A DNA stretch of 64,000 bases from Thermoplasmatales archaeon I-plasma (GTDB lineage Archaea; Thermoplasmatota; Thermoplasmata; Thermoplasmatales; GCA-001856825), in assembly GCA_001856825.1 (NCBI GenBank), contig ATMD01000004.1, forward strand, positions 1 through 64,000. Direction: 5' to 3'. The notes beneath the pieces are model-generated. The model had not been told where the DNA came from and made no database searches. It saw only the letters and a program-made list of their open reading frames with translations. Shown here piece by piece: positions 364 through 28,341 of this stretch. Numbering within the stretch: position 1 is the stretch's first letter; every line of letters begins with the position of its first letter. A program made the position numbers and the translations under genes.

Positions 364-507
364 TTACCTCAATAAACGATTCATCGCACAATTAGCACAC
401 AGGGGAGGGCTTTTTCGACCTCCAGAATCCGACTCAACGTAGGCTACCGCTACCTTGACTGTCTGACAGTCAAAACACATTCCGTTTACGAGCACAAAAT
501 GATTCAA
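364..507 (-). CDS. 47-residue zinc-ribbon protein, TTG start
   Basis: The frame opens at a TTG whose last bases overlap the stop of the CCA-adding enzyme gene (TTGA). It encodes CFDC and, about 25 residues later, CANC, a four-cysteine zinc-binding unit. An internal ATG six codons before the first CxxC is weaker. Its position between the CCA-adding enzyme and another zinc finger in one run of overlapping genes argues for real expression. Function unknown. Confidence 0.6.
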   Translation of the reverse strand: MNHFVLVNGMCFDCQTVKVAVAYVESDSGGRKSPPLCANCAMNRLLR

Positions 508-1811
508 TTTTCCACTTCCTTTAAGACCTTACTTGCGTCCTCTATCCATATGGACCTGACTGAATCTTTCCTCCTTTCGGGAGGAAGTTCCATGAGCCTT
601 CCAGGTCTTGGCCTCTCCACTTCATAGAGCCTCCTCATCAGCTCTGGGGAAGGAGGTGCGTGGCCATCTGCTTTGGAGAGAGTCGCAAGGTCGAGCAACC
701 ACTGAAGAGGTATATGTTGCAGCCTCGCGTCCACTATATGCTTAGCGATCGTGGACGGTCTCTGGTTGTTCACACCTACAAACCTCATGTGACCTGCTAT
801 CAGGAACATTATGTGATTCTCTCTCTCCCTGCTGAAATGGAAATTCCTGATGATAGGGCCCGCGAACGCCTTCGAGAACTTCGGATGATCATGAAAAGTG
901 ATTTTATTTCCATCAACGGCCATTGACGTTATCTTTCCCGAATCATGATACACCGCAGCCAGTTTCACCTCGAAGGGGACGAGTTCACCCGAAGACCATT
1001 CGTTGCCTTCGATGTACCTCAGCATATCTCTTGTGTGTTGCAGCAGAGATTCACCGTAATGATGCCCCCTGGAATCATGCTTTACTCCTTCCCACTGCGA
1101 GACATCAATTCCAAAAATCACATCAGCGGCCCCGATAGAGATTACTCCATCGAAGAACTTCTTGAAGGAAGGAGAGGCCTTTACCATCTCGTCACGTACC
1201 CTTTCCCTGCTCACAAGCCCCAGCCGCTGTGCGTTTCTACAAATAGCTTCAAACGTATTCGGTTCCATCCGGAAACCCATGACAGAGGCAAATCTCACAG
1301 CTCTCAGGATCCTGAGGGGGTCTTCCTCAATTCTCTTATCGGGATTTCCCACGAACTTGATAATGCCGTTCCTCAGGTCCTTCTCCCCTCCGAATGCATC
1401 CAGAAGATTCTGCTGACCTCCGTTCAACCCCAATGCCATGGAATTGATAGTGAAATCTCTCCTCGACAGGTCCCTGGATATTTCACCCACTTCATATTCT
1501 ACGGGGTCGTCCGCTGGACCTTGATATATTTCGCCTCTCGGCACCGTAACATCCACTACCAGCTTTGGGTCATGGTCAAGAACGACCTTGGCGGTCTTGT
1601 AAGGGATTCCATCTCTCAGGACAACATACCGATGCTTTAGATGCTGAACCAGTTCCCTGAATTGAGGGGCTTCTACAACTATGTCGAGGTCTCCCCTATT
1701 CTTCCCCAGCAGAGTGTCCCTTACGACCCCGCCGACAGCGTAGACACTCCAATTCCTTCTCGAAATATACCTCACTAAATCTCTTTCCTGCTCATTCAGT
1801 TCTATTTCCAT
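504..1811 (-). CDS. cca: Class II (bacterial-type) CCA-adding tRNA nucleotidyltransferase / poly(A) polymerase family protein with HD domain
   Basis: At 435 residues it has the complete class II nucleotidyltransferase signature: the GG...RD motif (GGVVRD, residues 27-32), the catalytic DLD (41-43), RRDFTINSMAL, and the tRNA-binding neck motif DPLRILRAVRFA. A C-terminal HD-type domain (HTRDML, YHDSGK, AGHM) follows, as in bacterial CCA enzymes with phosphohydrolase activity. The expected reaction is adding or repairing the 3' CCA of tRNAs using CTP and ATP. Archaea normally use the unrelated class I enzyme, so this copy was probably acquired. It overlaps a small membrane-protein gene upstream and a zinc-ribbon gene downstream. 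Poly(A) polymerase activity cannot be excluded from sequence. Confidence 0.88.
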   Translation of the reverse strand: MEIELNEQERDLVRYISRRNWSVYAVGGVVRDTLLGKNRGDLDIVVEAPQFRELVQHLKHRYVVLRDGIPYKTAKVVLDHDPKLVVDVTVPRGEIYQGPADDPVEYEVGEISRDLSRRDFTINSMALGLNGGQQNLLDAFGGEKDLRNGIIKFVGNPDKRIEEDPLRILRAVRFASVMGFRMEPNTFEAICRNAQRLGLVSRERVRDEMVKASPSFKKFFDGVISIGAADVIFGIDVSQWEGVKHDSRGHHYGESLLQHTRDMLRYIEGNEWSSGELVPFEVKLAAVYHDSGKITSMAVDGNKITFHDHPKFSKAFAGPIIRNFHFSRERENHIMFLIAGHMRFVGVNNQRPSTIAKHIVDARLQHIPLQWLLDLATLSKADGHAPPSPELMRRLYEVERPRPGRLMELPPERRKDSVRSIWIEDASKVLKEVEN

Positions 1812-6599: not shown

Positions 6600-6791
6600 G
6601 GGTTTGGAACTTCCCTGGCAGGAAATACACAGTAGACCTCTAAGAAAAGGGAGAGGTACATTAAAAATAAATAGGAAAGAAATTTCGACAAATTTAGCCA
6701 TTCTTTCGAATGTTGCCACCCTTTCTCCACGTTGAGGAATTGCCAGAATGAAAGGGGCAAAAAATATAAAAAAATCAAGAGTAAGAGGTCT
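6600..6791 (-). repeat. Degenerate repeat copy A, 3' of the nuclease gene
   Basis: Read on the minus strand, one frame starting at 6791 gives PLT...APF...IPQRGERV followed by a hydrophobic stretch. Copy B on the other side of the nuclease gives PLT...SPF...IPHRGERV in the same order. The DNA is also visibly similar. It begins exactly at the nuclease stop codon. It is probably a remnant of a small membrane-protein gene or of flanking DNA carried with the nuclease; no start codon lies at the beginning of the frame. Confidence 0.5.
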
Positions 6792-7291
6792 CAGACCACT
6801 GAAGCAATGGCTGTAGCAACATCCCTGATGCCGATGGCTGGCACGTACCTGTAACCAATCTTCTTTGACAAGTCCTTCCCTTGAGCCACCTGCCAGTCGT
6901 AGTTATCGCGAATGGCAAGCTTGACCTCAAGGAGTACTGTCTCCTTGGGACCAAAAATCAGGAAATCCACCTCGGACTTCCCTGCCCTGACATTGGGGGC
7001 AAACTTGATTCCCAATGCCTCAAGAAGAGACCTGACGACCTCCTCAAAATCATGTCCGTTTCTAGAACCTCCCTCTCTGTAACCATAGTCATGAAATACA
7101 TTATTCAGATATGAAAAAATTTCAGCTGCAAGGGTGCTTCCAAATTCCTTTACCGACCGCTTAAAGACTGCAGAGTTTCTCAACCCTTCAGAGACCAAGG
7201 GGGGGTAGACATGATCCGACCCTGACCCACCCTGAGAAAGTTTTAAATCCTCAGAGTAGATGGTATTAACTGGTGATATGAGTTCTGGCAT
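6791..7291 (-). CDS. PD-(D/E)XK-fold nuclease
   Basis: A 166-residue protein whose C-terminal half has the restriction-endonuclease core: a helix with Glu (GHDFEEVVRSLLEALGI), then SEVDFLIFG, then LLEVKLA, giving the E...D...ExK constellation typical of Holliday-junction-resolvase or restriction-like enzymes. The expected chemistry is Mg-dependent DNA cleavage. The N-terminal 45 residues are unrelated and polar. A small frame (copy B) ends four bases upstream, and both flanks carry related repeat sequence. Whether it acts in recombination, defence or as a toxin cannot be told. Confidence 0.7.
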   Translation of the reverse strand: MPELISPVNTIYSEDLKLSQGGSGSDHVYPPLVSEGLRNSAVFKRSVKEFGSTLAAEIFSYLNNVFHDYGYREGGSRNGHDFEEVVRSLLEALGIKFAPNVRAGKSEVDFLIFGPKETVLLEVKLAIRDNYDWQVAQGKDLSKKIGYRYVPAIGIRDVATAIASVV

Positions 7292-7295
7292 ATCA

Positions 7296-7482
7296 TCACT
7301 TCTTCCCTTTTCTTTTTTTTGAGCTAAGATTCAAAAAACATAATCCTTCCAGGGCAAGAAGAATTATGTAAAAAATCTGGACATGTTGGCCGTTCTTTTG
7401 AACGTTCACTCTCTCACCGCGATGAGGTATGTCCTGAGAGAGAAATGGAGATAAAATAACAAACAATTTTGTCAGTGGAATT
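7296..7482 (-). repeat. Degenerate repeat copy B / possible small membrane-protein frame upstream of nuclease
   Basis: An open minus-strand frame (possible TTG start at 7466, stop at 7296-7298) encodes a 56-residue protein with IPHRGERVNVQ and a hydrophobic C-terminal half. It matches copy A (IPQRGERV) and ends four bases before the nuclease ATG. Both copies can also fold with the arms in the same place: CTCTCTCA/TGAGAGAG here (7409-7416, 7435-7442) and CCCTTTC/GAAAGGG in copy A (6719-6725, 6750-6756). Coding remnant and structured RNA are both possible. Confidence 0.45.
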
Positions 7483-7996
7483 TAACAAAAAACTTATTCC
7501 GTTCACTTATCCCCATCATTTCCAAGCTTCAACAGCAACTTCCGCAAGCAATGAGTATAGTGAAAAAGAAACATAGTAAATTGTCTCGCCAACCGCTAAT
7601 TTCCAATGCCCAGAAACACAGAGAAACAACAATTTATAAAAATCTAACCAAAACTATTCCCATCGATTTCGTTTGTCCGTAATTCACTGATTATTTCCAA
7701 TTCTTCTGTTATGCCAACCTGACGCGGACACGTTTTTCGCTATATTCCACTTCGATCACATCGAGATTTTCCTCCGAAGTAGAGTTATAGATTTTATTAG
7801 GCCAGATGTGATTAGAGATTAGTGATTAGAAATACTAAGCCAATATATAAGGTTTATGGGAAAATGCACCGTCTATTTCTCACCTATCGTTCAACAAGAA
7901 GGAACGCTTCAGAAGGAGCACTTTCCAGCGATATCATATTATGGATAAATATATAAAAAAGAAAAATGATAGTTGGCAATAAATATAAGATTAAAT
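7483..7996. other. Gene-poor region with a probable gene remnant
   Basis: No intact gene is supported. A minus-strand open frame at 7709-7825 lacks a start codon but reads like a protein C terminus (YNSTSEENLDVIEVEYSEK...) ending in TAA. At 7894-7911 an 18-base sequence is identical to part of the winged-helix gene near 17562-17579 and encodes EAFLLVE in both places. TATA-like AT-rich runs occur at about 7628-7640 and 7845-7855. The region appears to be built of decayed sequences. Confidence 0.4.
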
Positions 7997-11275: not shown

Positions 11276-12190
11276 TTAGAGCCCGCAGTAGCCTGCCTGC
11301 TCACACGCCATTTCCTCACCCTCGTCTTTCCCATTGACAGCAAACCATGACTGATCCTTCCACCTCCCCCTTATCTCCCTCAAGGTCCCCCCCGCCGGCC
11401 TAAGTCCATAGGTGGGGAAGTTCAAGTCTGCCTCTTCCAGCTTAATGGCGTCGTCGAAGAGATCCTGATGCTTCCTCATCAATTTTACCCATTGAGTCTT
11501 GGACTGGAACGGACAAAAATAGCAACCGCTCTTGGGAGGGACCGAATACCCCCTCTGCCTGATGTACACAATACAATCCTGCCTCGTCATCTTAAGGCCT
11601 ATCAATGGATATTTCACAACATACTCCGAGTGGTGAGGTTTATATATCCTGTCCATCTCATCAGCACTCAATCCGATCAGAGCAATCGGTTGTTCGACGT
11701 ATTCCCCGTTTTTCTTCGAAGAGACGATATACTGCTGTATCGGAACCAGCTTACTTATTGATGTGCACCACCTCGAGCTGGGATTGACACTTGGCACAAT
11801 CCTTCTCTTGACTATAGTGTCCCTCAGGGAAGTAACCATCACTCTTGGTATTTTCATCTTCTGCTCCTCTTCCCGTCTCTTTATTGTTCTTTTATTCCTG
11901 GAAAGTTTCTTTGTATTTTCAAACATCTTCTTATATTCCAGAGTCTCCTCCGGATTCAACCTAGATATATCCGAAACAATTTTTTTCATCCGGACGGTGA
12001 CAAACTTAATTTTCATCTTCTTACAGATCGGTTTTACTACCTTTTCTAGGTGTTCATAAGTTTCTGGATGTTCAGCTCCTGTATCGGCAAAGACTAATTC
12101 ATCTAGCCGTGATATCTTCCCTTCCTCCGCCAGCAAAAGCAAACAGAATGTTTGAACCCCTCCACCATAACTCAAGAAAGTAGATTTCAT
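11276..12190 (-). CDS. PP-loop ATPase of the PAPS-reductase/DndC-like superfamily
   Basis: 304 residues with the N-terminal PP-loop (SYGGGVQTFCLL, residues 7-18), a FADTGAE strand after it, RWCTSISK in the middle and a SGCYFCPFQ cysteine motif near residue 223. This matches phage- and plasmid-borne adenine-nucleotide alpha-hydrolase/PAPS reductase-like proteins. Such enzymes activate a substrate by adenylation, often for sulfur transfer to nucleic acids. The paired cysteines could carry sulfur or a metal cluster. No DNA phosphorothioation partner genes are nearby, so the substrate is unknown. It follows a 42-residue gene by ATGA overlap. Confidence 0.7.
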   Translation of the reverse strand: MKSTFLSYGGGVQTFCLLLLAEEGKISRLDELVFADTGAEHPETYEHLEKVVKPICKKMKIKFVTVRMKKIVSDISRLNPEETLEYKKMFENTKKLSRNKRTIKRREEEQKMKIPRVMVTSLRDTIVKRRIVPSVNPSSRWCTSISKLVPIQQYIVSSKKNGEYVEQPIALIGLSADEMDRIYKPHHSEYVVKYPLIGLKMTRQDCIVYIRQRGYSVPPKSGCYFCPFQSKTQWVKLMRKHQDLFDDAIKLEEADLNFPTYGLRPAGGTLREIRGRWKDQSWFAVNGKDEGEEMACEQAGYCGL

Positions 12191-12319: not shown

Positions 12320-12700
12320 TTATCTCCATTCGAAGTGTTCAAATGTCTGTGGATGTTTTTTCTTCACGAATGCGTAAGCCTTCTCGAAGTTGATGTCGTG
12401 ACCCTGAATGGCTTTCGCAACGATGTACGGACTCCTGTCAATTCCGGCGTCGCAATGAACCAACACCTTCTTTCCATATCCTAAAAGATGTGCGATCAGT
12501 TTTCTTCCAGTCCTGACCATGAAAGCGTCCATATCCTTTATTTTACCATTGTACTCTTTCCTCCAGTGGTTGTATATCGGAATGAGGAAATTGTCCCTGT
12601 CTATGGCCTCGTCAGCAACGGATACTACAATGAAACTATCGTCTGCCTTCTCTGCATCTTCCCTGTCTCCAAGCCAGAGATTGGGTATTATCTCATCCAT
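12320..12700 (-). CDS. Dual-specificity protein phosphatase
   Basis: 126 residues with the signature HCx5R active site (VHCDAGIDRSP; nucleophile C83, phosphate-binding R89) and the PNLWLGD opening typical of small dual-specificity phosphatases. It should remove phosphate from protein or other phosphorylated substrates. First gene of an operon with a 42-residue protein and the PP-loop enzyme. Host signalling interference or processing of a cyclic/phosphorylated intermediate are possible roles, both inferred. Confidence 0.8.
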   Translation of the reverse strand: MDEIIPNLWLGDREDAEKADDSFIVVSVADEAIDRDNFLIPIYNHWRKEYNGKIKDMDAFMVRTGRKLIAHLLGYGKKVLVHCDAGIDRSPYIVAKAIQGHDINFEKAYAFVKKKHPQTFEHFEWR

Positions 12701-12855: not shown

Positions 12856-13974
12856 GTGAAGATACTCCTGGTCGAGCCTGATTATTACACCAGATACCCT
12901 CCTTTAGGCCTTCTGAAGATCGGCAAGGTGGAGGAAAGGAAATGGAACGAGGTCCGGCTGGTTCGCGGGCTACAGGATATCCATGGGTTTGAGCCTCAGA
13001 GGATAATGATAACCTCACTCTTCACTTTCGCATGGAAGCCCGTCCATAATGCCGTCGAATATTATCACAAGTTGTTTCCCATCGCTGAAATAACGTTAGG
13101 GGGCATCTACGCAACACTGATGACAAATAATATCAAGGAAGCGTTCCCCTTCGTCAGCGTTCATTCTGGGCTCGTTCCGGAGGCGGAAAGTGTACTTCCT
13201 GCTTACCATCTTTTGAAACAAGTTGACAAGTGGAAGGATTGGAGCAAATCCATAGTCTTCACCACCAGAGGGTGTATTAGGAAGTGCCCTTTCTGTGTCG
13301 TCCCCAGAATAGAAGGTAAGATGAAGGAACCCAAATTCTCGATCCTTCCATTTATTCACCCCGACCACAAAGACGTTGTGATATGGGATAACAACTTCCT
13401 TGCATCGCCGTATGCCAAAGACATACTCACCGAACTCGGGGACGGAGGATACAAAGTGGACTTCAACCAGGGACTTGACGCGAGATTGATGACCGAGGAA
13501 TTTGCGGACCTCCTTGCAGACATCAGGTCCGATACGATCCATATGGCGTATGACTGGCCCTGGGAAGGCCCCTACGTATCCAAGGCAATAGATTTGCTTG
13601 CTTCAGCCGGTTATAGGAGGAAGGACCTGATCTTTTACTTGCTGTACAACTTCTATGATTTCAAGTACCAAAAAGGAGACACCCCGACGGATTACTTTCA
13701 TAGGATTCGAGATCTTGCTGAATGGGGAGCCTCCGCGTATCCCATGAGATTCATCCCTTTAGACTCCCTCACTCGCAACGGCTTCATATCCCCTCTCTGG
13801 ACAGTTGAGCAACTGGAGATGATAGCAGACTTCAGGAGAGTGATGGGATATGCGGGCACATTGGTTCCACACGGTGGTATCGTCAATAAAATCCTTGCCT
13901 CCAGCGATTTTGAGGAGGCAATGGAATTGCTGCCTGAGAAAGATGAGAAGATTATTATAAAAATTACACACTAA
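12856..13974 (+). CDS. Radical SAM protein with a possible N-terminal B12-binding-like domain
   Basis: A GTG start at 12856 opens a 372-residue protein with the radical SAM cluster motif CIRKCPFC (Cx3Cx2C) near residue 140. The N-terminal part (KILLVEPDYYTRYPPLGLL, LGGIYATL) resembles the cobalamin-binding-domain layout of methylthiotransferase-like radical SAM enzymes, although no DxHxxG base-off motif was seen. It is divergent from the phosphatase operon and convergent with the zinc/basic-protein operon. Substrate unknown. A [4Fe-4S] cluster and S-adenosylmethionine use are expected. Confidence 0.8.
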   Translation: MKILLVEPDYYTRYPPLGLLKIGKVEERKWNEVRLVRGLQDIHGFEPQRIMITSLFTFAWKPVHNAVEYYHKLFPIAEITLGGIYATLMTNNIKEAFPFVSVHSGLVPEAESVLPAYHLLKQVDKWKDWSKSIVFTTRGCIRKCPFCVVPRIEGKMKEPKFSILPFIHPDHKDVVIWDNNFLASPYAKDILTELGDGGYKVDFNQGLDARLMTEEFADLLADIRSDTIHMAYDWPWEGPYVSKAIDLLASAGYRRKDLIFYLLYNFYDFKYQKGDTPTDYFHRIRDLAEWGASAYPMRFIPLDSLTRNGFISPLWTVEQLEMIADFRRVMGYAGTLVPHGGIVNKILASSDFEEAMELLPEKDEKIIIKITH

Positions 13975-15451: not shown

Positions 15452-16185
15452 TCGGAAACCTCCCTCATTGAATTCAGTTCTATCAAGTCTGAAGAATGTT
15501 CTGGATGGAATGACATCTCGGCTTGTGCCATATCTATCAGGAACCACCTGTAAGATTTGCTGTGACCACGATAGGCATACATGAAATCGACTGACCAGTT
15601 CTCCTCTTTCAGTGCGGGAGAAAAGTCATTTTCTATCTGCCCTATTATCTGAATTATCTCGCCTTTCGGTATGTCATAGAGCTTGGTCCATCTTTTCTCC
15701 CAGTCATCGGGAATGGTGAAAGAAGCCCAGTGGTCCCTTACAAATACTTCGTGCGCCCAATACCTGTGAACGCAGGTCACCTTCCCCTTTTCGACAAATA
15801 CCCGCAGCTCCCTTGCGATTGGCAAACCGTCAAAGGCCTTGAAATTCGAGAACGGCGTGAGCAATTCCCTGAAGACAAGGTGCTGAGGGAAGAGGTCAAC
15901 TGAGAAGTTGAAATCCAGGGTATTGTATATCTTTGACTTTATCTCCCTCTCGTTGTGGATAATGCATGACCGATTATATTCATGCTTATTGCTCGCTAGG
16001 TCTGTCCTGAAGAATACGGGATATTTCCCCTTCAGCTCTGCCTTTATCTTCTTCACCCAGTTCTCTGGCATCCCATCCATCCACTCAAGTAAGTCAGGAG
16101 GGGAGAGCGTGAAAGTGTTTGGCGTTTCAAAGTATTCCCTGACTTCAAGATACCAATAGAGGAGGGAATTGTGGTCAGTGGGCAA
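15448..16185 (-). CDS. ATP-grasp-like ligase, viral type (R2K-clade-like)
   Basis: 245 residues. The start is a TTG at 16185 preceded by GAGGTGAT. The fold is suggested by FFRTDLASNKH in the first half, RELRVFVEKGKV followed by RYW, VDFMYA and finally WFLIDMAQAEMSFH, the strand order and ID-x-A/N metal-site region of short phage ATP-grasp proteins. Such enzymes form amide-type bonds by acyl phosphate. No substrate is apparent. It lies in the same operon as DUF5131 and several small zinc proteins. Confidence 0.6.
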   Translation of the reverse strand: MPTDHNSLLYWYLEVREYFETPNTFTLSPPDLLEWMDGMPENWVKKIKAELKGKYPVFFRTDLASNKHEYNRSCIIHNEREIKSKIYNTLDFNFSVDLFPQHLVFRELLTPFSNFKAFDGLPIARELRVFVEKGKVTCVHRYWAHEVFVRDHWASFTIPDDWEKRWTKLYDIPKGEIIQIIGQIENDFSPALKEENWSVDFMYAYRGHSKSYRWFLIDMAQAEMSFHPEHSSDLIELNSMREVSE

Positions 16186-16191
16186 TGGATA

Positions 16192-16377
16192 TCACCTCTT
16201 GCCTCCCTGACCGTAATACACAATTCCTGCCTCCTCTACCATGAAAGTTTCTAAGAGCTTCTCCAGCTTTTTCTCACTTGCAGCTTCATTCTCTGGCTGA
16301 TATTCCATCCTGAACACTTTAATCCGGTGCTCGGAAGGTCTCGCCTCGCTCACCACAACAACAATAGCCACTCTCAC
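16192..16377 (-). CDS. Unknown 61-residue protein
   Basis: Begins by ATGA overlap with the DUF5131 gene and ends seven bases before the ATP-grasp start. A hydrophobic N-terminal strand (VAIVVVVSEA) precedes a helical charged middle and a Gly/Lys tail (GQGGKR). Too short for family assignment. Confidence 0.5.
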   Translation of the reverse strand: MRVAIVVVVSEARPSEHRIKVFRMEYQPENEAASEKKLEKLLETFMVEEAGIVYYGQGGKR

Positions 16378-17156
16378 ACCTCCGCGGGGAATTCCCTGAC
16401 AATCAGATCTTCTGGAACTCCTTCCAATGAGCCCGAATGCTGGCTTGAAGTTTGTTTGAAAAAGTACTTAACATTCTGGAGCTTGGCTTGGTCAAGCAAA
16501 TTGTACGCCCAATCAATGTCAAAAGGTCTCCTATTGTTTCCGCTCTCGGCGCCTACGATGATCCAATCTGTTCCCTTGAGGTCGACCTCACCAATATCCT
16601 CAAGAAGCGGCTCAAATGAAACAAATTTTATCCTCGCAGGAATCTTCCTGAGCACGTCCAGCCTGTTAACATAATCCGGACTTTCCACCGTTGCCCCCAA
16701 CCAGAGGTTGGAAGGGAAATTCCATAGACTTCTCTCGTTTCTTGCCCCGTAATAGCTCAATGCCTCTTCAGGTCTTTTTGTGAGCACCTGGAATGTATGC
16801 CACGGGGCAACTTCCATCCCGCTGAACACTTTATCCCTGAACCTGTCGGGAATATCAGGATGGAAAAGGTCAGTCATGTCACAGACAAATATCTTCGAGG
16901 GTTCTTCCAATCTTGACCATTCGAGGGGTTCACTTTCATAAAACTGCCATTCCCCCCAGTCAAGGCTTGTCTGGTTGTATAGCAGCCGGTTACCGTACCG
17001 AAAGTTTATCGCCTCGCTATAGCAGTTTGCACATCCTTTCGATACCTTGGTACAGAGCCATCCCTTCCTTGCCCTCTTCGTGGCGGGGTCTTCCTCTACA
17101 GTGAAATGTATGGGGTTGCTCGTCCACTGGGTCCATGCAATCGAAGTCCTCTGCAT
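16374..17156 (-). CDS. DUF5131 / phage Gp37-Gp68 family protein
   Basis: 260 residues with the family hallmark opening SIAWTQWTSNPIHF, then KVSKGCANCYSEA (with an upstream Cys, giving C-x5-C-x2-C), VCDMTDLFH, FQVLTKRPE, LWLGATVES, FVSFEPLLEDIG and DWIIVGAESG. The family is common in phages and plasmids and is related to radical SAM proteins such as spore photoproduct lyase by its cysteine triad; its reaction is not established. Here it stands between a winged-helix zinc protein and a 61-residue protein, upstream of an ATP-grasp gene. Confidence 0.88.
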   Translation of the reverse strand: MQRTSIAWTQWTSNPIHFTVEEDPATKRARKGWLCTKVSKGCANCYSEAINFRYGNRLLYNQTSLDWGEWQFYESEPLEWSRLEEPSKIFVCDMTDLFHPDIPDRFRDKVFSGMEVAPWHTFQVLTKRPEEALSYYGARNERSLWNFPSNLWLGATVESPDYVNRLDVLRKIPARIKFVSFEPLLEDIGEVDLKGTDWIIVGAESGNNRRPFDIDWAYNLLDQAKLQNVKYFFKQTSSQHSGSLEGVPEDLIVREFPAEV

Positions 17157-17161
17157 TTATT

Positions 17162-17683
17162 TCAGTTGCTCCCTCTCTTCCTGTAATTTGAACAGCTGCA
17201 GCGCCTGCAATGCCCTCCGTCGTCAAAGTCGTGGTTTCCCTTGCCGTGACCGCACCTGCAAAGCGACTCCATGACCGGTGTTGAAGCATGAACGGACAAA
17301 CCGGAAACTACCCGTAACCTGTTTCCGATACCATGGGAGACCCTCCAAAGAGCCGCAGAGCTTTCCACGGACTCCAAGAACGAGGGGCGCACCTTCAGAA
17401 GTATCTGACCGTTGCTAGTGACCTTCCATTCTGAATGCCTTCCATACGCCTTATAAAAATGTTTTAACTCTGCCATCGCCTGTTCTCTTGATATCCCAAC
17501 GCACCCGGATATTTCTTCCGGCGATACCCATAAAGGTATTTTATCCGCAATGTAAATTTCGACAAGAAGGAACGCTTCATCGTCTGGCATTTGAAATTCC
17601 ATCGACACTTCAGTCGTGCCCCGCCTTGAGCGGGACGGAGCATGAAAGTCCTCCTCTTTAACGATCGTATTATTGAATTCCAC
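17162..17683 (-). CDS. Winged-helix protein with C-terminal Cys/His zinc module
   Basis: 173 residues. A winged-helix region (about 45-100; LWVSPEEISGCVGISREQ is the recognition part) is followed by a linker and a C-terminal cysteine/histidine cluster (CRCGHGK...H...CRRCSC) that should bind zinc. It is the first gene of the 17683-13964 operon and is likely its regulator. The sequence for EAFLLVE is duplicated as an 18-base match at 7894-7911. Confidence 0.6.
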   Translation of the reverse strand: MEFNNTIVKEEDFHAPSRSRRGTTEVSMEFQMPDDEAFLLVEIYIADKIPLWVSPEEISGCVGISREQAMAELKHFYKAYGRHSEWKVTSNGQILLKVRPSFLESVESSAALWRVSHGIGNRLRVVSGLSVHASTPVMESLCRCGHGKGNHDFDDGGHCRRCSCSNYRKRGSN

Positions 17684-18998: not shown

Positions 18999-19571
18999 TT
19001 ATAATCGTTTTATCCTGCCGGCGTAAAGGCTGAGTAGTTCCTTAAGGTAATCCGGAATCTTCTTCTCATACCCCTGCCTGATAAGGTAAGCGGGATGGGG
19101 TAGGCAGAAGACGGGAATCCCATTGTACGAGAGAATGCCCGCCACGGACTTCCCAAATAGCAGGTCGCCCTTCATCCTCCAGTAACCTATGCCAAGAATC
19201 CTCACCGGAGTCTTTCCGACAAGGATGAGGGCCGATGGCATGAGCTGAGATATCTCCCGGTCCAAGACAGGAAGACAAGCCTCCACCTGGGAAGGGGTGG
19301 GCGTATGGTTTTGCGGGGGGCGGTGCTTAACGATGTTCGTAACGGTGTATTCCCGGAGCCCCATGTATTCCAACCACATATCAAGGGTTTTCCCCGATCT
19401 TCCCACAAAAGGCACCCCCGTCTCAGCTTCCTTCTTGCCAGGAGCCTCCCCCACAATTAACACCTTTCCATTTCCCTTAAACCTCTGAAGGGCGTAACCT
19501 CGTCCCGTCAGTTCGCAGGCAGTGCAATGCCTTACCCTGTCTTCCAGTTGAGCGTAGGTAGGATGGGTCAT
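18999..19571 (-). CDS. udg: Family 4-type uracil-DNA glycosylase
   Basis: 190 residues with CTAC at residues 16-19, the family 4 motif GEAPGKKEAETGVPFVG (41-57), VKHRPP (82-86 region) and the second catalytic loop HPAYL. Family 4 enzymes bind a [4Fe-4S] cluster through four cysteines. Here the third ligand in the usual VKCRPP is His (H83), with C99 as the fourth, so the cluster may be altered. The protein should remove uracil from DNA arising by cytosine deamination. It lies close to the element's PCNA. Confidence 0.85.
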   Translation of the reverse strand: MTHPTYAQLEDRVRHCTACELTGRGYALQRFKGNGKVLIVGEAPGKKEAETGVPFVGRSGKTLDMWLEYMGLREYTVTNIVKHRPPQNHTPTPSQVEACLPVLDREISQLMPSALILVGKTPVRILGIGYWRMKGDLLFGKSVAGILSYNGIPVFCLPHPAYLIRQGYEKKIPDYLKELLSLYAGRIKRL

Positions 19572-20911: not shown

Positions 20912-21670
20912 TTAGCTGTCTGTTTCGGAGATCCTTGGAGCGACCACATAGGCGACTGAGATCTTTCCGCCCATGGTTTTTGCATCCATCTTAAATGGGT
21001 AATCTGTAGCGAGAGATATCTTGATATCACCGAAGTCTGAAACATTCTTGAGAAAGGACGAGACCAATTCCGTCGCGTGGGTGCTCTTTGCAAGTCCTTG
21101 GCCAACCAGCTCCTTCAACGAAGTCCTTGGTAAACTGGCTTCTATTGTTTCATCGACCACATCCCCGACAGCTTTCACAGTAAACGCATCAGGGAGGAGC
21201 AACATAGTCACCGTTTGTGATACCATCCGAGTTGCGTTTATAATTTTCATCAGTTCATTGGCTTCAAGAACCGCCCAGTTGTTGTGGGAGAGCGAAGGAA
21301 TCTTAGGCACGGTCAGGAGGCCGGGGTCTATCGCCGGCTGACTCATTCTCAGGCCAGCTGATTTAAAGGTGATCTTACCCTTTTCAATGGAAACTGATAC
21401 GACGTCTGACGGGGAGAACATCCTGATTGACCCCATAGCCTTTGTTACATCAATTCCAGTAGACTCCCCAACAGTACCATCCGTTATCCCATTATAGGTT
21501 TGAAATGCTTCTTTTGAAACCTCAAGACTCAGCATTGCTGTTCTTTCAGTGTTCATGGCCTTAACGCTGAGCCCACTTGAATTAAAGTTGAGAGCGACTT
21601 CTGTAGCGACTGAACCCATGGTTTCCAGGACCTTTCTGAGGGTTTTACTATCAATATCGAAATTTACCAT
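20912..21670 (-). CDS. pcn: PCNA-like sliding clamp encoded by the element
   Basis: 252 residues, the normal size for PCNA, with the two-domain pattern (SSGLSVKAMNTERTAMLSLEV in domain 1 and a conserved C-terminal FKMDAK...ISVAYVVAPRI). The usual archaeal C-terminal LAPRIE is changed to VAPRISETDS, and several surface regions diverge. It would encircle DNA and hold polymerases, ligase or nucleases through PIP boxes. The element location next to HTa and the integrase suggests a second clamp, separate from the host copy, which is not in this window. Confidence 0.85.
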   Translation of the reverse strand: MVNFDIDSKTLRKVLETMGSVATEVALNFNSSGLSVKAMNTERTAMLSLEVSKEAFQTYNGITDGTVGESTGIDVTKAMGSIRMFSPSDVVSVSIEKGKITFKSAGLRMSQPAIDPGLLTVPKIPSLSHNNWAVLEANELMKIINATRMVSQTVTMLLLPDAFTVKAVGDVVDETIEASLPRTSLKELVGQGLAKSTHATELVSSFLKNVSDFGDIKISLATDYPFKMDAKTMGGKISVAYVVAPRISETDS

Positions 21671-21781: not shown

Positions 21782-22051
21782 TTACTTGTATTTTACGCTG
21801 CCGGAAGCGGAGAAATGAAACTTGTTCTTGACTGGGACATTAATGATTGCCTTGGTTCTTGGGTTCTTGGCCTTTCTTGCCTTCGTCTTCCTTCTGGAAA
21901 AGATACCGAACCCTGCTAATCTGACTTTTTGGCCCCTATCAACGTTCTTCACTATGTCCTTCAGGGTTTCCCTTATGACTGATTCAGCAGCCTTCTGTGA
22001 TACCTTCGCCTTCCCTGCGACGTCCTTTGCTATCTCAATTATTCCAACCAT
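21782..22051 (-). CDS. HTa-type histone-like DNA-binding protein (HU family)
   Basis: 89 residues with the full HU/IHF fold signature: helices 1-2 (KDVAGKAKVSQKAAESVI), the glycine-rich turn VRLAGFGIF, and the basic DNA-binding arm ending in a short C-terminal helix. Thermoplasmata use such an HU-type protein (HTa) as their main chromatin protein. Presence on the element beside PCNA suggests the element packages or organises its own DNA. Probable single-gene transcript. Confidence 0.9.
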   Translation of the reverse strand: MVGIIEIAKDVAGKAKVSQKAAESVIRETLKDIVKNVDRGQKVRLAGFGIFSRRKTKARKAKNPRTKAIINVPVKNKFHFSASGSVKYK

Positions 22052-22124: not shown

Positions 22125-22853
22125 CTATCGTTCTTCAGTATATTTATTCATCATGGACATGAACTGGCTAGTGTCCATCTGGTGTATCCTCTGGTAGATG
22201 AGGGTGATTGTAGGGTCGGAGTGACCCATCCACTGTTGGGCTATCTGCAGGGGAACTCCGTTCAGGGAGCATCTAACACCGAAGGTATGACGGAAGATAT
22301 GAGCATGGAGCTGATGTTTCTCCGAAACCCTGAGGCCGATAGCCTTTCCCACCCTCTTCAGGTACCAGTCGACAGACTGCCTGGTCACGGGGAAGAGGTA
22401 CTCCTTGGACCTTAGGGGTAACCCGGTCTCCAGGAGAAACTCGAGGAGCTGGGTGCGGAGGGCTGGAGGGAGGGGAATCGCCCTTACGGAGTCGTTCTTC
22501 TTCTTTTCAGTGTGGACATAGAGGTGGCCGAGGGGGCCGTCCTCCAAATGGAAGTCGAGGGGGCGGATTCCGTACTCGACCTTGAGGCGGGTATCATACC
22601 AGTGAACGACCTCTCCCACCCTCACACCCGTCTGCAGAAGGACCTGAAAAAGGAAGCGGTACCTCTTAACAGCCATGGCGCGACCAGGATGACCTTCGTC
22701 CAAATGCTTCCTGATCTGTGATGCGAGGTGATTCATTATCGCATCAACCTGATCGTCGGTCAGATACTCGATGCCTATCTTTTCTGAAAGGTTCCGGGTG
22801 ATTCTAATCTTGTTCTCCCTTGGGATTGATGGAAGCATAATTTGACAATTCAT
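22125..22853 (-). CDS. Tyrosine recombinase / integrase
   Basis: 242 residues with an N-terminal SAM-like core-binding region and a catalytic domain: Arg in TGVRVGEV, HIFRHTFG (HxxR), GHSD and the nucleophile Tyr in LIYQRI. This is the XerC/phage-integrase active site. It most likely integrates and excises the element. It sits at the right boundary, transcribed toward the element's interior. Confidence 0.9.
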   Translation of the reverse strand: MNCQIMLPSIPRENKIRITRNLSEKIGIEYLTDDQVDAIMNHLASQIRKHLDEGHPGRAMAVKRYRFLFQVLLQTGVRVGEVVHWYDTRLKVEYGIRPLDFHLEDGPLGHLYVHTEKKKNDSVRAIPLPPALRTQLLEFLLETGLPLRSKEYLFPVTRQSVDWYLKRVGKAIGLRVSEKHQLHAHIFRHTFGVRCSLNGVPLQIAQQWMGHSDPTITLIYQRIHQMDTSQFMSMMNKYTEER

Positions 22854-23142
22854 TGTTCTTTAAATACACATGCGTCGGTTCCAATTTTCAGTTCTTTCAT
22901 GAGAATTATATACGATGACCAAGAATGAGGAGAGTCGATTTGACAAAAGACCCGATATTGTCAAAGGTAGCACAATTCTATTTTAATTTCAAAGATAAGA
23001 CCACGGAATGTGGACGATGTCACAAGGTCTGAAGAAAGGGATAACGGAGGCAGAGAAGGGAAGTTTGAAGAACTTAGAAAGAACCTGTGAATCAAATCAT
23101 AAACACTCAGTCCACACGGCTTCATCTGGCTAAATTAGAGTT
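22854..23142. other. Intergenic boundary region right of the integrase
   Basis: About 290 bases without a supported gene. AT-rich TTTAAATACA at 22859-22868 is a probable TATA element for the integrase. A 23-codon plus-strand frame at 22916 has no supporting context. The element-host junction and attachment site probably lie here, but no tRNA or repeat could be recognised. Confidence 0.4.
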
Positions 23143-23634
23143 CTAGTAGCTGATTTCTCCTTTCTTATTCACAAAATCCAAATTTAGTACGCCCTTAATC
23201 GTTTCTAGAAAATCTATTCCAAGAAGGCATATCATCTTTGCAGACTGCGTGCCCCTTCTTTTATATATCCCTCGTCCTGTTTCAACTTTTTTGGAAATTT
23301 CTGAAGGCATTACATTTATCTTCGGGAGATTCACGGTTTCTGGACCTACGTTTGTAAAGACTGTAAAGGTCACGTTTGTCAAGAAATGTCCTTGTGTAAA
23401 CCCGCCTACTCCCGCCAATTGTTGGGTGGGCAGAGAATTGTAATCAATACCTAATTTTGAGATTTCACCGTCTGTTACAGCTGAAATTCCAGATCCTGTG
23501 TCCAGATAAAACATAGCTTTAATAAAAGGAGGAGTCGCAGGAGTCTTAACAGCACTAGGTACCTTTATTCCAACTAGAACAGGCAGCCTAAATAATCTCG
23601 TTGACTGGTCCCATTCGAGACTTATGATTGGCAT
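23143..23634 (-). CDS. Retropepsin-like aspartic protease
   Basis: 163 residues with the single-domain retropepsin features: FYLDTGSGIS (catalytic D45, DTGS loop), the following turn GGFTQGHF, and the conserved C-terminal LLGIDFLE. Such archaeal proteins would work as dimers. The gene lies six bases after a DUF5678-like protein, a pairing known in many archaea and suspected to be a toxin-antitoxin-like or regulatory unit. Peptidase activity and target are not shown by the sequence. Confidence 0.8.
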   Translation of the reverse strand: MPIISLEWDQSTRLFRLPVLVGIKVPSAVKTPATPPFIKAMFYLDTGSGISAVTDGEISKLGIDYNSLPTQQLAGVGGFTQGHFLTNVTFTVFTNVGPETVNLPKINVMPSEISKKVETGRGIYKRRGTQSAKMICLLGIDFLETIKGVLNLDFVNKKGEISY

Positions 23635-23640
23635 GAATCT

Positions 23641-23895
23641 TCATAAGATCCATATTAGGTTTTCAGGTGTTATAAGGTCTATGAAAACTCCTTTTATAGC
23701 CCCGAATTTCTCAGTCAATTCTTCTTTGTTCAAAGAGTATCCTAATATCTTGCCTTCTGCTATTGCCACAAAATAACCTACGTGACTCTTCAATTCCTGA
23801 TAAATACTGTTTGCATATCTGGCATTTTTTGCATATTCCGTGAAATCTTCTAATACCTCTGGAGGAATCTGCATCGTCATTTTACTCAAATTCAA
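23641..23895 (-). CDS. DUF5678-like small protein, partner of retropepsin
   Basis: 84 residues. An N-terminal helix region is followed by the strand pattern VGYFVAIAEGKILGYSLN and another helix, as in DUF5678 proteins that precede retropepsin-like genes in archaea. Expressed in one unit with the protease (six-base gap). No catalytic motif; an inhibitor or regulator role is inferred from context. Confidence 0.6.
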   Translation of the reverse strand: MNLSKMTMQIPPEVLEDFTEYAKNARYANSIYQELKSHVGYFVAIAEGKILGYSLNKEELTEKFGAIKGVFIDLITPENLIWIL

Positions 23896-23965
23896 CTACT
23901 ATATATTAACCTTTACTTGCTGTTAAGGGCCTCTATTAACTTCTTTGGGGGCAGGACCTTAGGAT

Positions 23966-24304
23966 TCAAACCTGAATAAGCCTGTAATTTATGTTTCTCT
24001 TTTTGCACCACTCTCTTGCTGCGTCTGCTTTCAACTTGGTGATTTTATTATCGATCATGTGAGCCCCTTTTATTTCGACTATTTCCTGCTTACCATCTGT
24101 GTATTCAACCAAGAAGTCCGGGGTGTAATGTGCAAGTCTTCCGTCGAGGTTGAAATACGGTATTCTTATGCCATGATTCTTGGTCCATTTGCTTACCTTG
24201 TCATTTTTCTCCAGTTCTTCCATGAAAAATCTCTCCTGGTCGCTCTGGTAGAATTCGACCGACCACGCACTTTTCTTGGGATTCAAAAAAGGTTTATCAC
24301 TCAT
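23966..24304 (-). CDS. Type III restriction nuclease domain as a separate protein
   Basis: 112 residues containing the PD-(D/E)XK core: YTPDFLVEYTDGKQEIVEIKG (D and E-x-K). In type III Res proteins this nuclease is the C-terminal domain of the helicase subunit. Here it is a separate gene whose ATG overlaps the helicase stop as ATGA, so the two probably assemble after coupled translation. The clean overlap argues against a simple frameshift. Confidence 0.75.
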   Translation of the reverse strand: MSDKPFLNPKKSAWSVEFYQSDQERFFMEELEKNDKVSKWTKNHGIRIPYFNLDGRLAHYTPDFLVEYTDGKQEIVEIKGAHMIDNKITKLKADAAREWCKKRNINYRLIQV

Positions 24305-26319
24305 TGTTTCACCTCAGAAAAAATTCCCTTGATTATTCCTTTAGTAAACTTCTCTTTTACTGATGGCAGGAAGTAATATGCCATATTGAGTTCATCCTGG
24401 GAAACTTCCGATATGCTAAGATTTCTGAAAAATTTCTTTGAGATGTGATCCATCAATACATCATACAATCTGGAAGTTTTTGCGATGTCTAGAGAATTTT
24501 CTTCTATCAATCCTTTTGCCAGTGAAACCACTTCGTCCTTGAAACTTTCTATCGATATTCGTTTCTCACTTTCTCCCTTGAAGTATCTGTCATCTGTTGG
24601 TTTGGTTATTTCTGTTCCCGTCTTCCCCCTACCTATATACTTCTTTTTTATATTTTCCAGTATCACGGCTTCTATCTGCAGCCTATCTGGGTACTCATAA
24701 GTAGAGCCATCCAAGACCTCCTTCCAATTGAGTATGGGTCCTTCGGATGTGAGATTAGCCTTTATAGCCTCCAATTTCTGCTTGAAATCCTTATCCTCAA
24801 CGGGTTCGTTAATCTTTATCAATTTATCCGGATTAACGAGCTTCTGCAAATATTCCGTCTTAGGCGGAAGGGGCTCCTCCTCTATCACATCCGTAGGTAA
24901 AATGCCCTGCCTTATTCTTGAAACATTCATCATTCTCCAGAGCCAGCCATGGTCCAACTTGGGGTGATCAATTACGTGAAGAATCTCTGGGTCAGGGCTC
25001 TTCTTGTTGACTTTTCTCAGACCCCTCCCTATTATCTGTTTCCCAAATACTGGAGATATTATCCTCCTTAGCAGCAGAATGACGGACACCTCGGAAACAT
25101 CCCATCCCTCACGCAGCATAAATACGCTCACCACAGCATCGTATGGACTGTCAAGATGCCCTATCTTCTTGGCCTCCTCCCTGTTCTCATCTGGAGAATC
25201 TTCTGTAACTACCAATGCCCTTAAATCAAATTCCCTCTCTATGAAATCTTTTGCAGTCTTTGCCTCTTCTATTCCCATAGTGACAACAAATAAAAGGGGC
25301 TTGTACTTTCCTCCTGCTTCTTGTCTCTTAGCCCTCAGAGCATTGACGGCAATAGAAAGCAGCATTCTCATTGGAGCTGGGTCCATTACCCATTGGAAAG
25401 GTTTGACTCTCCTTTCAGCGTCCTCAAATTCCTTGTCCATTTCCGAGATTCTTTTCTTCTCATTCGTCTTTGCGTTTGTATATGTTATTTCAACGATTCT
25501 TGCGTCCGGTTGGAGGACAACTATGTTCTTGATTAATGGTCTCGGGGCATCCATGGCATCCGTGATGTCGAAGGAATAGATCAACCTTGAATCGGGATAA
25601 GTGTTGTCCGCTCTTTCTGGTGTTGCGGTTGTATCCAATCGGAAAAGTGTATTGTTCCTTAGAATCGACAGTATGTGAGTGAACTCATCAGCTACCGTAT
25701 TGTGTGCTTCGTCATTGAATATTGCAATGCGCGGGAAATTCTCCTTCAGGAAACCCAGATTCCTTGCGGTGTTTGTACCACCAGTGTAGAGTTCCTGGAC
25801 ATTTGTGAGTATTATATCGGCAGTGATCATTCCCTGCGGCCCGGAACCACTTTCTATAAGAACCGTGGATATGGATTTGTTTAGATTTTCGTCTGGGGAT
25901 ATGGACCACTTCTCAAATATTGTCCTGCCATCTCCCGAAGATCTCAGGAAATCGTCCTGAAGCCTGTCCCTCACAATCAAGTTTGGAGTGATTATAAGAA
26001 ACCTGTCGAACTGGTCACCGTAAGCATACTTGAGCCACGCTATTACAGATGCGATGATTAGGCTCTTTCCTCCGCCTGTCACTATTCTCAACAGGTATTT
26101 AGATTCCAAAGCACGGTCCTTGACTTCATAGAGAAATATGATTCTCAGGATAGCCTCCTTCTGGTGTTGCCACAGTTCGTCCCCTTCCCTCCGCTCCAGG
26201 AGATGCTCAATAAATTCGACGGTCTTCTGGGAACAGTTGGGATAATGGGACATCTGCCAATCCTTGAATTCTTGTTCGAACTCCATGAATGAATCCGGCA
26301 TTGTGATGTTCTGGGGCAC
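24301..26319 (-). CDS. res: Type III restriction enzyme Res helicase/translocase subunit (lacking nuclease domain)
   Basis: 672 residues with SF2 motifs: Walker A TGGGKS (81-86), DEAH-like FNDEAHN, TATPERA, MLREGWDVSEV and motif VI IIGRGLRK. It should hydrolyse ATP to move along or search DNA after the Mod subunit recognises its site. It is shorter than typical Res because the nuclease is encoded by the following overlapping gene. It directly follows mod with no gap. Confidence 0.85.
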   Translation of the reverse strand: MPQNITMPDSFMEFEQEFKDWQMSHYPNCSQKTVEFIEHLLERREGDELWQHQKEAILRIIFLYEVKDRALESKYLLRIVTGGGKSLIIASVIAWLKYAYGDQFDRFLIITPNLIVRDRLQDDFLRSSGDGRTIFEKWSISPDENLNKSISTVLIESGSGPQGMITADIILTNVQELYTGGTNTARNLGFLKENFPRIAIFNDEAHNTVADEFTHILSILRNNTLFRLDTTATPERADNTYPDSRLIYSFDITDAMDAPRPLIKNIVVLQPDARIVEITYTNAKTNEKKRISEMDKEFEDAERRVKPFQWVMDPAPMRMLLSIAVNALRAKRQEAGGKYKPLLFVVTMGIEEAKTAKDFIEREFDLRALVVTEDSPDENREEAKKIGHLDSPYDAVVSVFMLREGWDVSEVSVILLLRRIISPVFGKQIIGRGLRKVNKKSPDPEILHVIDHPKLDHGWLWRMMNVSRIRQGILPTDVIEEEPLPPKTEYLQKLVNPDKLIKINEPVEDKDFKQKLEAIKANLTSEGPILNWKEVLDGSTYEYPDRLQIEAVILENIKKKYIGRGKTGTEITKPTDDRYFKGESEKRISIESFKDEVVSLAKGLIEENSLDIAKTSRLYDVLMDHISKKFFRNLSISEVSQDELNMAYYFLPSVKEKFTKGIIKGIFSEVKQ

Positions 26320-28341
26320 CTATTCCACCTCTATCTCTTTTACTATCATGGTTTCCCCTCCCTGGTCGTCCTCCACCTTGAAGGCCACTGTTTTTTTGCC
26401 GCCCGAGTCAAATTTATAGGAGACTAGAAGGGGACTTGATGGATTCCCTTTCGACAGGAATGCGTATCCCGAGGTCGGCACAAAGGCCTTGTTGTAGTCA
26501 AAATCCGCCTGGATGTTTATTATTTTTCCATTGTTCAGGGATGCAGACTCCGAAAAATCAAAATCGTACTCGAGGGAGACTTTTTTCCTGATTTTCAACC
26601 TGACAACGGGAGGCATGATGAATCTCAAGAATGTTTCGTATTCTGGGTGCTTTGATGTCACGTGCTCTCTGAATGCGTCCGACCCTATGTTTACCAAATC
26701 TATCGTCACGAAATCTATGCCTGCCCCCAACTTAGCAAGCATTTCCTTTGCCTGTTTTGCCTTCTCAGAAAATTGCCATCCAACCATTATCCCCCTTTTT
26801 CTATTTTCATAGTTTTCATTTAGGTATTGTGCAAAGTCTAACACATTGTCATCTGTAACGAACTCATTATTATCTTCAGGTCCTACCCAGACAGGAATTC
26901 CGTTCTTGAGACCAGAAATCTTTGGATCTGATATCTTCTGAGCTCCAAATGCCTTCACTATGAATGCCTCAAATTCCTCCTGCGATAAATCAGATAAGGA
27001 AGGAATGTCATAATAACCCCAAGATAATACTTGGATATTAGGAGTTCTTTCCGGAACGATCCAACCCTGCCCTTCACCTTTCAACAATTTCAGAATACGC
27101 CCTTTTGTGATTTCGACTGCTATCCTTGAAATATCGCTTGCTATCCAGCGTCTGCCTAACCTTTGAGCTACCGAAGGTGTTGTTCCACCACCACAGAAGA
27201 AATCTGCAACTACATCTCCTTCATTCGATGAAGCTCTTATTATACGTTCAAGCAAGGTTTCTGGTTTTTGGGTTGGATAACCTATTGATTCATTAGATGT
27301 TGACGTTATAACATTAATATCGTCCCAGAGATTTGAAATCGCTTCTCCTTCGTATTCATCTAAGTATTTTTTATATCTTGGAAGCCCAGATTTTGTCCAG
27401 TATATTATAAGTGGGTTCCTCTTCAGATTTTCGTCCAAAGTTTCTTGATTCCAGGCAAATCTTTTTCCCAGCGGGAGTTTCAGTTCCCTGTCTGGAAATT
27501 TCAAATAACTAGGCTCATTCCCAGCCAGAACAAGAGGCTGAGTTTCGAAATATCTTCCAGTTTCCTTTTCAAATTTGCTAAATTTGCCATTAAGAAAATC
27601 TACATCGTCGCTTTTCCTATGTTGCAGGTTGAAGTTGTGATTGTTATTCCTGGAATAAAACAATATTGAATCTGTCTTCTGTGAGAAATTCTTCAACCCC
27701 CCACTGGCTCCACTAACCATCACGTGTCTTTTCCAAATTATTTCATTTTGGAAATTATCATATCTAAAAATCTTATCCATTTCAACTTTCACATAATGCG
27801 ATGCATGCCAGTCAAGATGAGCATATATAGAACCTGTTGGTTTAAGAAGCCTTTTCATCTCTAGAAGTCGTGCATTAAGCCATACGAGGTAACCAGGCAT
27901 TCCATCTTCCCATATGTCGCTGAATGACCTGACTTCATTCTGGTCCCCGAATATAACGTTATAATTTCGTCCGGAAAAGAATGGAGGGTCAATGTAAATC
28001 AGGTCGATGCTTTCAGAAGGCAAACTTCTCATAATGTGAAGGTTGTCGCCCCAGAAGAGCTTGTTAGGTTCTAATTCGGGAGTCCCGAAGGATATCTCCT
28101 CTATTTTCTGGAAGGGTAAGTCTATCCTTGGGAACTTGTCCCTATATTCTCTGCCCTTTGTATAACCAAGAGGGAGCTCGTCGACTGGAACATTGCCAAA
28201 TCTTTTTGGGACCTTGAAGAATTCCTTCTGCTCGGATATCTCTATATTGGGGCCTTCCTCTTGTTCCTGCCCCACAATATTATCTACCACACTCTCAAGT
28301 GTAATGTCGTCCACCTTTGACTGCTTGGAATCTTTCACCAT
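26320..28341 (-). CDS. mod: Type III restriction-modification Mod subunit (N6-adenine DNA methyltransferase)
   Basis: 673 residues. The catalytic DPPF (118-121) precedes the SAM-binding FFCGGGTT, the beta-class order of type III Mod proteins. The intervening region is the likely target-recognition domain, and a beta-rich C-terminal extension follows. It should methylate adenine on one strand of a short asymmetric site and guide Res. Recognition sequence unknown. First large gene of the unit mod-res-nuclease. Confidence 0.9.
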   Translation of the reverse strand: MVKDSKQSKVDDITLESVVDNIVGQEQEEGPNIEISEQKEFFKVPKRFGNVPVDELPLGYTKGREYRDKFPRIDLPFQKIEEISFGTPELEPNKLFWGDNLHIMRSLPSESIDLIYIDPPFFSGRNYNVIFGDQNEVRSFSDIWEDGMPGYLVWLNARLLEMKRLLKPTGSIYAHLDWHASHYVKVEMDKIFRYDNFQNEIIWKRHVMVSGASGGLKNFSQKTDSILFYSRNNNHNFNLQHRKSDDVDFLNGKFSKFEKETGRYFETQPLVLAGNEPSYLKFPDRELKLPLGKRFAWNQETLDENLKRNPLIIYWTKSGLPRYKKYLDEYEGEAISNLWDDINVITSTSNESIGYPTQKPETLLERIIRASSNEGDVVADFFCGGGTTPSVAQRLGRRWIASDISRIAVEITKGRILKLLKGEGQGWIVPERTPNIQVLSWGYYDIPSLSDLSQEEFEAFIVKAFGAQKISDPKISGLKNGIPVWVGPEDNNEFVTDDNVLDFAQYLNENYENRKRGIMVGWQFSEKAKQAKEMLAKLGAGIDFVTIDLVNIGSDAFREHVTSKHPEYETFLRFIMPPVVRLKIRKKVSLEYDFDFSESASLNNGKIINIQADFDYNKAFVPTSGYAFLSKGNPSSPLLVSYKFDSGGKKTVAFKVEDDQGGETMIVKEIEVE

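Follow-up and report, generated by a model that had tools for sequence, protein, structure and literature searches.

A virus-type class II nucleotidyltransferase with an HD domain in an integrated element of a Thermoplasmatales archaeon

A minus-strand gene at positions 504 to 1811 of the archaeal DNA analyzed here encodes a 435-residue protein, P0001. This protein is a virus-type nucleotidyltransferase of class II, well formed and equipped with an HD domain, and its gene belongs to an archaeal mobile element. Our preferred reading, to which we give a probability of about 0.6, is that P0001 is an accessory protein of an integrated virus-like element and repairs RNA 3' ends, mainly those of tRNAs. 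The HD domain would remove 2',3'-cyclic or 3' phosphates from RNA ends, and the polymerase head would then add back C and A residues. The main substrates would be host or element tRNAs left with damaged or incomplete 3' ends during activity of the element, and P0001 would work in parallel with the class I enzyme of the host. We infer these enzymatic activities, tRNA as the substrate, and repair as the benefit; counted in their favor are the intact catalytic residues, the class II fold, the viral relatives, and the separate class I gene of the host, together with the RNA-repair or tRNA settings of the class II genes in two archaeal viruses, Acidianus tailed spindle virus (ATSV) and halovirus HGTV-1. 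The initial annotation of this DNA, which had proposed much of this interpretation, is partly supported as a whole.

The open reading frame begins with ATG and contains no internal stop. In Pfam, P0001 matched PolyA_pol at 2.2e-22 (80.2 bits, above the cut-off of 23) and PolyA_pol_RNAbd at 8.6e-9; the HD match was weak (0.043, under the cut-off). PHROG 2244, "tRNA nucleotidyltransferase," matched at 1.8e-53. We aligned P0001 with 35 viral relatives, and all invariant columns of this 36-protein alignment are present in it. The polymerase head keeps GG..RD, D41/D43, R117-R118-D119, and E163-D164..R167, and the HD domain keeps the metal ligands H259, H289-D290, H309 (near-invariant), H341, and D382. 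All 46 PDB matches of the AlphaFold model (pLDDT 86) at an E value of ≤0.001 are class II CCA- or A-adding enzymes or bacterial PAP. The PolyA_pol head, the motifs (DxD of motif A, RRD, and EDxxR), and the fold thus each place P0001 in the class II superfamily, and the original description of a bacterial-type class II enzyme with all motifs plus an HD domain is confirmed by Pfam, the alignment, and the fold. An HD domain is ordinary in one branch of class II enzymes. On the strength of these residues, catalysis by P0001 should be intact. None of the NCBIfam CCA equivalog cut-offs was reached by P0001 (TIGR02692 scored 153.2 against a cut-off of 438.8, and the others scored lower).

The stretch of DNA analyzed, here called the window, covers the initial 64 kb of a contig of 567,734 bases in a 1.69-Mb archaeal genome that is 93% complete. 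The contig starts inside the element, whose other end lies off the contig. The element runs from the contig start to a tyrosine recombinase (integrase) at 22125 to 22853 on the minus strand, which marks its right edge, with phage-type genes in between; the placement of the gene in an archaeal mobile element therefore stands. Besides P0001, the minus strand encodes a phage-type PAPS-reductase/SspD-like protein (11276 to 12190), a dual-specificity phosphatase (12320 to 12700), a DUF5131 protein (16374 to 17156), a uracil-DNA glycosylase (UDG) superfamily protein (18999 to 19571), an archaeal-type PCNA-like sliding clamp (20912 to 21670), and an HU-family DNA-binding protein (21782 to 22051), and the plus strand encodes a radical SAM protein (12856 to 13974; PHROG 9298). 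No capsid or packaging gene was recognized in the part of the element on the contig, and we therefore leave its kind wide: it may be a virus, a provirus remnant, or another integrated element. No tRNA gene was found within the window. Among 117 genomes of the order, DNA comparison recovered relatives of single element genes only, and the element PCNA has no relatives in IMG/VR. Attempts to extend the element failed, as no contig end overlaps the start of the window, and the end of host contig C2, considered as a continuation, differs in composition.

Several other features of this genome were recorded. Within the element, a 22-nt direct repeat, TTCAACAAGAAGGAACGCTTCA, occurs at 7890 to 7911 and 17558 to 17579 (21 of 22 positions identical, 9.7 kb apart), the first copy lying in the non-coding stretch before the second of the ribozyme candidates described below. 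A stretch adjoining the integrase (23058 to 23945), with an open reading frame for a retropepsin-like aspartyl protease, is duplicated at positions 15693 to 16580 of contig C2 with 89% identity. Also adjoining the element, on the minus strand, is a locus resembling type III restriction-modification systems that includes a TnsA-like nuclease (23966 to 28341); a sister genome has DNA 74% identical to part of this locus. Host contigs C5 and C6 are plasmid-like elements related to each other that encode ParA, HerA-like, and recombinase proteins, and positions 1 to 40 of host contig C1 resemble a cloning-vector polylinker.

The host has its own class I CCA enzyme, encoded on contig C1 by an intact frame of 444 codons, which scores 321.5 bits against TIGR03671. 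The search for a class I gene elsewhere in the genome, proposed at the outset, was thus successful, and the class II gene of the element is additional to it. Bacterial contamination or misassembly, a reading that the bacterial type of the enzyme might invite and that had been named as grounds for refutation, is rejected on contig continuity and codon usage, and we regard its probability as negligible. P0001 shares a 568-kb contig with host genes, which from about 31.8 kb onward match sister genomes of the genus; 37 of the 41 arginine codons in its gene are AGA or AGG, the same usage as in host and element genes; and the PCNA on the same element is of archaeal type.

Two features set P0001 apart from its relatives. 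The C-terminal motif GxDLxxxGxxPGxxIGxIL, carried by nearly all relatives, is absent from P0001 in the alignment, and residues 401 to 423 are modeled with a pLDDT under 50. A frameshift hiding the tail was considered and rejected, since the downstream frames encode none. In the flexible loop, most relatives place a basic residue ahead of the proline, as in RxP or SKP, whereas P0001 has GPADDP. These two features, along with the lack of a tRNA in the window and the unreached NCBIfam equivalogs, count against the repair reading. In class II enzymes, the flexible loop contacts the 3' region of the tRNA, whose acceptor and T stems are recognized by the body and tail (PMC3925840). Judged by its sequence, then, P0001 may choose substrates different from those of its relatives, and the missing tail motif and acidic loop weaken the case for plain CCA addition. 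An enzyme that tails mRNA or small RNA ends, or that has a narrow substrate range and makes only partial (CC or A) additions, would account for both features, and the ATSV relative is also annotated as a poly-A polymerase. However, EDxxR is intact in P0001, and the loop-bearing stretch between motifs A and B is of normal length (72 residues against a median of 68), unlike in CC-adding enzymes, which have a loop deletion. RNA tailing, offered initially alongside tRNA repair, is thus kept as a possible but rather unlikely rival, and RNA repair is the best reading. The lost tail motif, which no downstream frame restores, and the long branch of P0001 in our tree could also mark a decaying passenger gene without function, but the open frame and the full set of catalytic residues in two domains make this very unlikely.

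Homologues of P0001 are rare among related archaea and frequent among viruses. They occur in 2 of 400 genomes of the class and in 2 of 117 genomes of the order, the latter being the host and one metagenome-assembled genome with a doubtful match; the other 115 have none. That match, which adjoins a signal-peptidase-like gene on a contig of 3.3 kb in a genome with a class I gene elsewhere, looks like bacterial contamination. Relatives were found in 390 phage records and 92 plasmid-collection records, as well as in at least 594 IMG/VR contigs; a single-sequence scan of IMG/VR with P0001 gave no match, and the best segments reached 41% identity to P0001. The initial annotation had called for a phylogeny. 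In a 57-row tree, ATSV is the sister of P0001 (support 91/93), with a long-branch warning (P0001 branch length of 1.7); approximately unbiased (AU) tests on this set did not reject placing P0001 with an archaeal chromosomal clade (P = 0.149) or with a Clostridia/phage clade (P = 0.132). In an earlier 27-row set, P0001 stood alone, and a topology joining it to ATSV was not rejected (P = 0.348). The best viral fold match in BFVD is A0A125SJA9 (450 residues, E value of 2.0e-24, TM score of 0.76; the next match was at 6.7e-17), which by its length is probably ATSV gp83.

The archaeal chromosomal clade bears on the premise that archaea carry class I enzymes, which holds for the host and fails elsewhere in its phylum. 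A class II gene is present in 126 of 390 sampled genomes of the phylum, nearly all in two families, f49 and f57, that are probably Poseidoniia by our inference. None of the 20 genomes tested from these families had a class I match, and class I therefore appears to have been replaced by class II in them, so that the rule breaks down across two families of a single phylum. As in P0001, these are class II enzymes in archaea. They differ from it in lacking an HD domain, in occupying a conserved chromosomal neighborhood, with a divergent ParB-like gene beside and an acyl-CoA dehydrogenase-like gene nearby (L167 to L172 and L175), and in standing in for class I, and they do not group with P0001. The trees give no support to an origin of P0001 from these genes, although the AU test (P = 0.149) does not reject it, and the occurrence of the same gene in a conserved chromosomal context across related archaea, which had been named as a second refutation, was not found. 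Two further class II genes in archaeal bins (L173 and L174) lie on contigs that look phage derived; in the tree, their products fall among phage proteins, and both genomes keep class I.

The element also contains two HDV-like ribozyme candidates, 5 to 6 kb upstream of the P0001 gene and on the same strand. Candidate 1 (6684 to 6756, minus strand) matches RF02682 at 38.9 bits (E value of 7.1e-6 for the genome), and candidate 2 (7377 to 7442, minus strand) at 34.8 bits (E value of 6.4e-5); both matches are full length, and both are under the gathering threshold of 44. P1 to P4, the P2 pseudoknot, and the catalytic C, which in candidate 1 lies in GGCUAA, are present in both. P2 has five pairs in candidate 1 and six in candidate 2 (GGACAU/AUGUCC), and it lies outside RF02682 scoring. 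Paired changes between the copies number two in P1, one in P3, and one in P4. No other RF02682 match at an E value of ≤0.05 occurs in the 117 genomes of the order. Between the candidates lies a 166-residue PD-(D/E)XK-like nuclease candidate (6791 to 7291, minus strand), whose MTES_1575, NERD, and Mrr matches are all under cut-off and for which no relatives were found in phages or IMG/VR; candidate 1 begins 34 nt after its stop, and candidate 2 is upstream of it. A terminator-like hairpin followed by a T run (7338 to 7369, minus strand) comes just after candidate 2, and the number of such hairpins in the region is not above that in shuffles. Upstream of candidate 2, a tRNA-like RNA was sought, but Rfam gave no match, and the folding was on a par with that of shuffles (z = −0.12). 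Since the scores are under cut-off and J1.1/4 of candidate 2 is two bases short, we treat self-cleavage by both copies as a candidate activity only. Cleavage at both sites could set free an RNA of 686 nt bearing a 5'-OH and a 2',3'-cyclic phosphate.

P0001 might act as a partner of these ribozymes, with its HD domain clearing the 2',3'-cyclic phosphate ends of cut transcripts and its head extending them. In the CCA enzyme of E. coli, the HD domain has both 2',3'-cyclic phosphodiesterase and phosphatase activity, which is compatible with such a role, as are the strand, proximity, and rarity of the candidates. Trimming of tRNA trailers is the role proposed for the HDV-like theta ribozymes of phages, and a tRNA adenylyltransferase is found in 20.6% of theta-ribozyme phage genomes against 0.08% of all phages (PMC10879173). 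However, our candidates flank a protein gene with no tRNA beside them and score under threshold, and a search of 40 virus records retrieved via their class II loci gave no RF02682 match at an E value of ≤0.05, a weak negative because the control genomes were silent as well. Because no tRNA was found in the window, we offer the link to P0001 only as a hypothesis and judge it unlikely. In its broadest form, the element would be an RNA 3'-end processing module in which ribozymes cut transcripts, the tail-less class II HD enzyme heals and tails the cyclic-phosphate ends, and the 686-nt RNA would be fit for circularization by host RtcB; this, too, seems to us improbable. The candidates resemble gut-phage theta ribozymes and the Faecalibacterium prausnitzii HDV-like ribozyme (RF02682) in their HDV-like fold and non-coding position. 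They differ in belonging to an archaeal element, in having P4, which theta ribozymes lack, and in lying beside a protein gene rather than adjoining a tRNA. No report of an HDV-like ribozyme from a mobile element of archaea was found in the literature searched, and the association of a class II gene with HDV-like ribozyme candidates in one element has so far been reported for phages.

Class II enzymes were already known in viruses, including archaeal ones, and P0001 adds a third archaeal virus-type case, in a host lineage that keeps class I and so allows both classes to be compared in one cell. Its closest known counterparts include bacterial, phage, and archaeal viral enzymes. Bacterial and phage class II CCA enzymes with an HD domain (TIGR02692, PHROG 2244) share its domain order and catalytic motifs; they are about 33% identical to it or less over the full length, the TIGR02692 cut-off is far off, and P0001 is without the tail motif. 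Phage enzymes of this type are predicted to restore tRNA CCA ends (PMC7824862, a jumbo-phage review). The initial annotation knew of no well-described archaeal virus example, but two exist. The tRNA nucleotidyltransferase of HGTV-1 (NC_021328, gene 242) is likewise a class II enzyme of an archaeal virus in an RNA-repair context, as HGTV-1 also encodes two RNA ligases and RtcB. It is 30% identical to P0001 over 289 residues, Pfam detects no HD domain in it, and HGTV-1 is a tailed virus with 36 tRNAs (PMC8651126), whereas the window yielded none. ATSV gp83 (NC_029316, Bicaudaviridae), annotated as "tRNA nucleotidyltransferase" or "poly-A polymerase," combines a class II head with an HD domain in an archaeal virus, has IMG/VR relatives that are 90 to 93% identical, and sits three genes away from gp80, a HAD phosphatase of the PNKP type. 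ATSV also resembles the element in having a PAPS-reductase-type gene and an integrase nearby, although neither is close to the element's own (E values of 2e-4 and 0.021, respectively). At 32% identity, and with a tail-type motif that P0001 lacks, gp83 is nearest to P0001 by the tree and probably by structure too.
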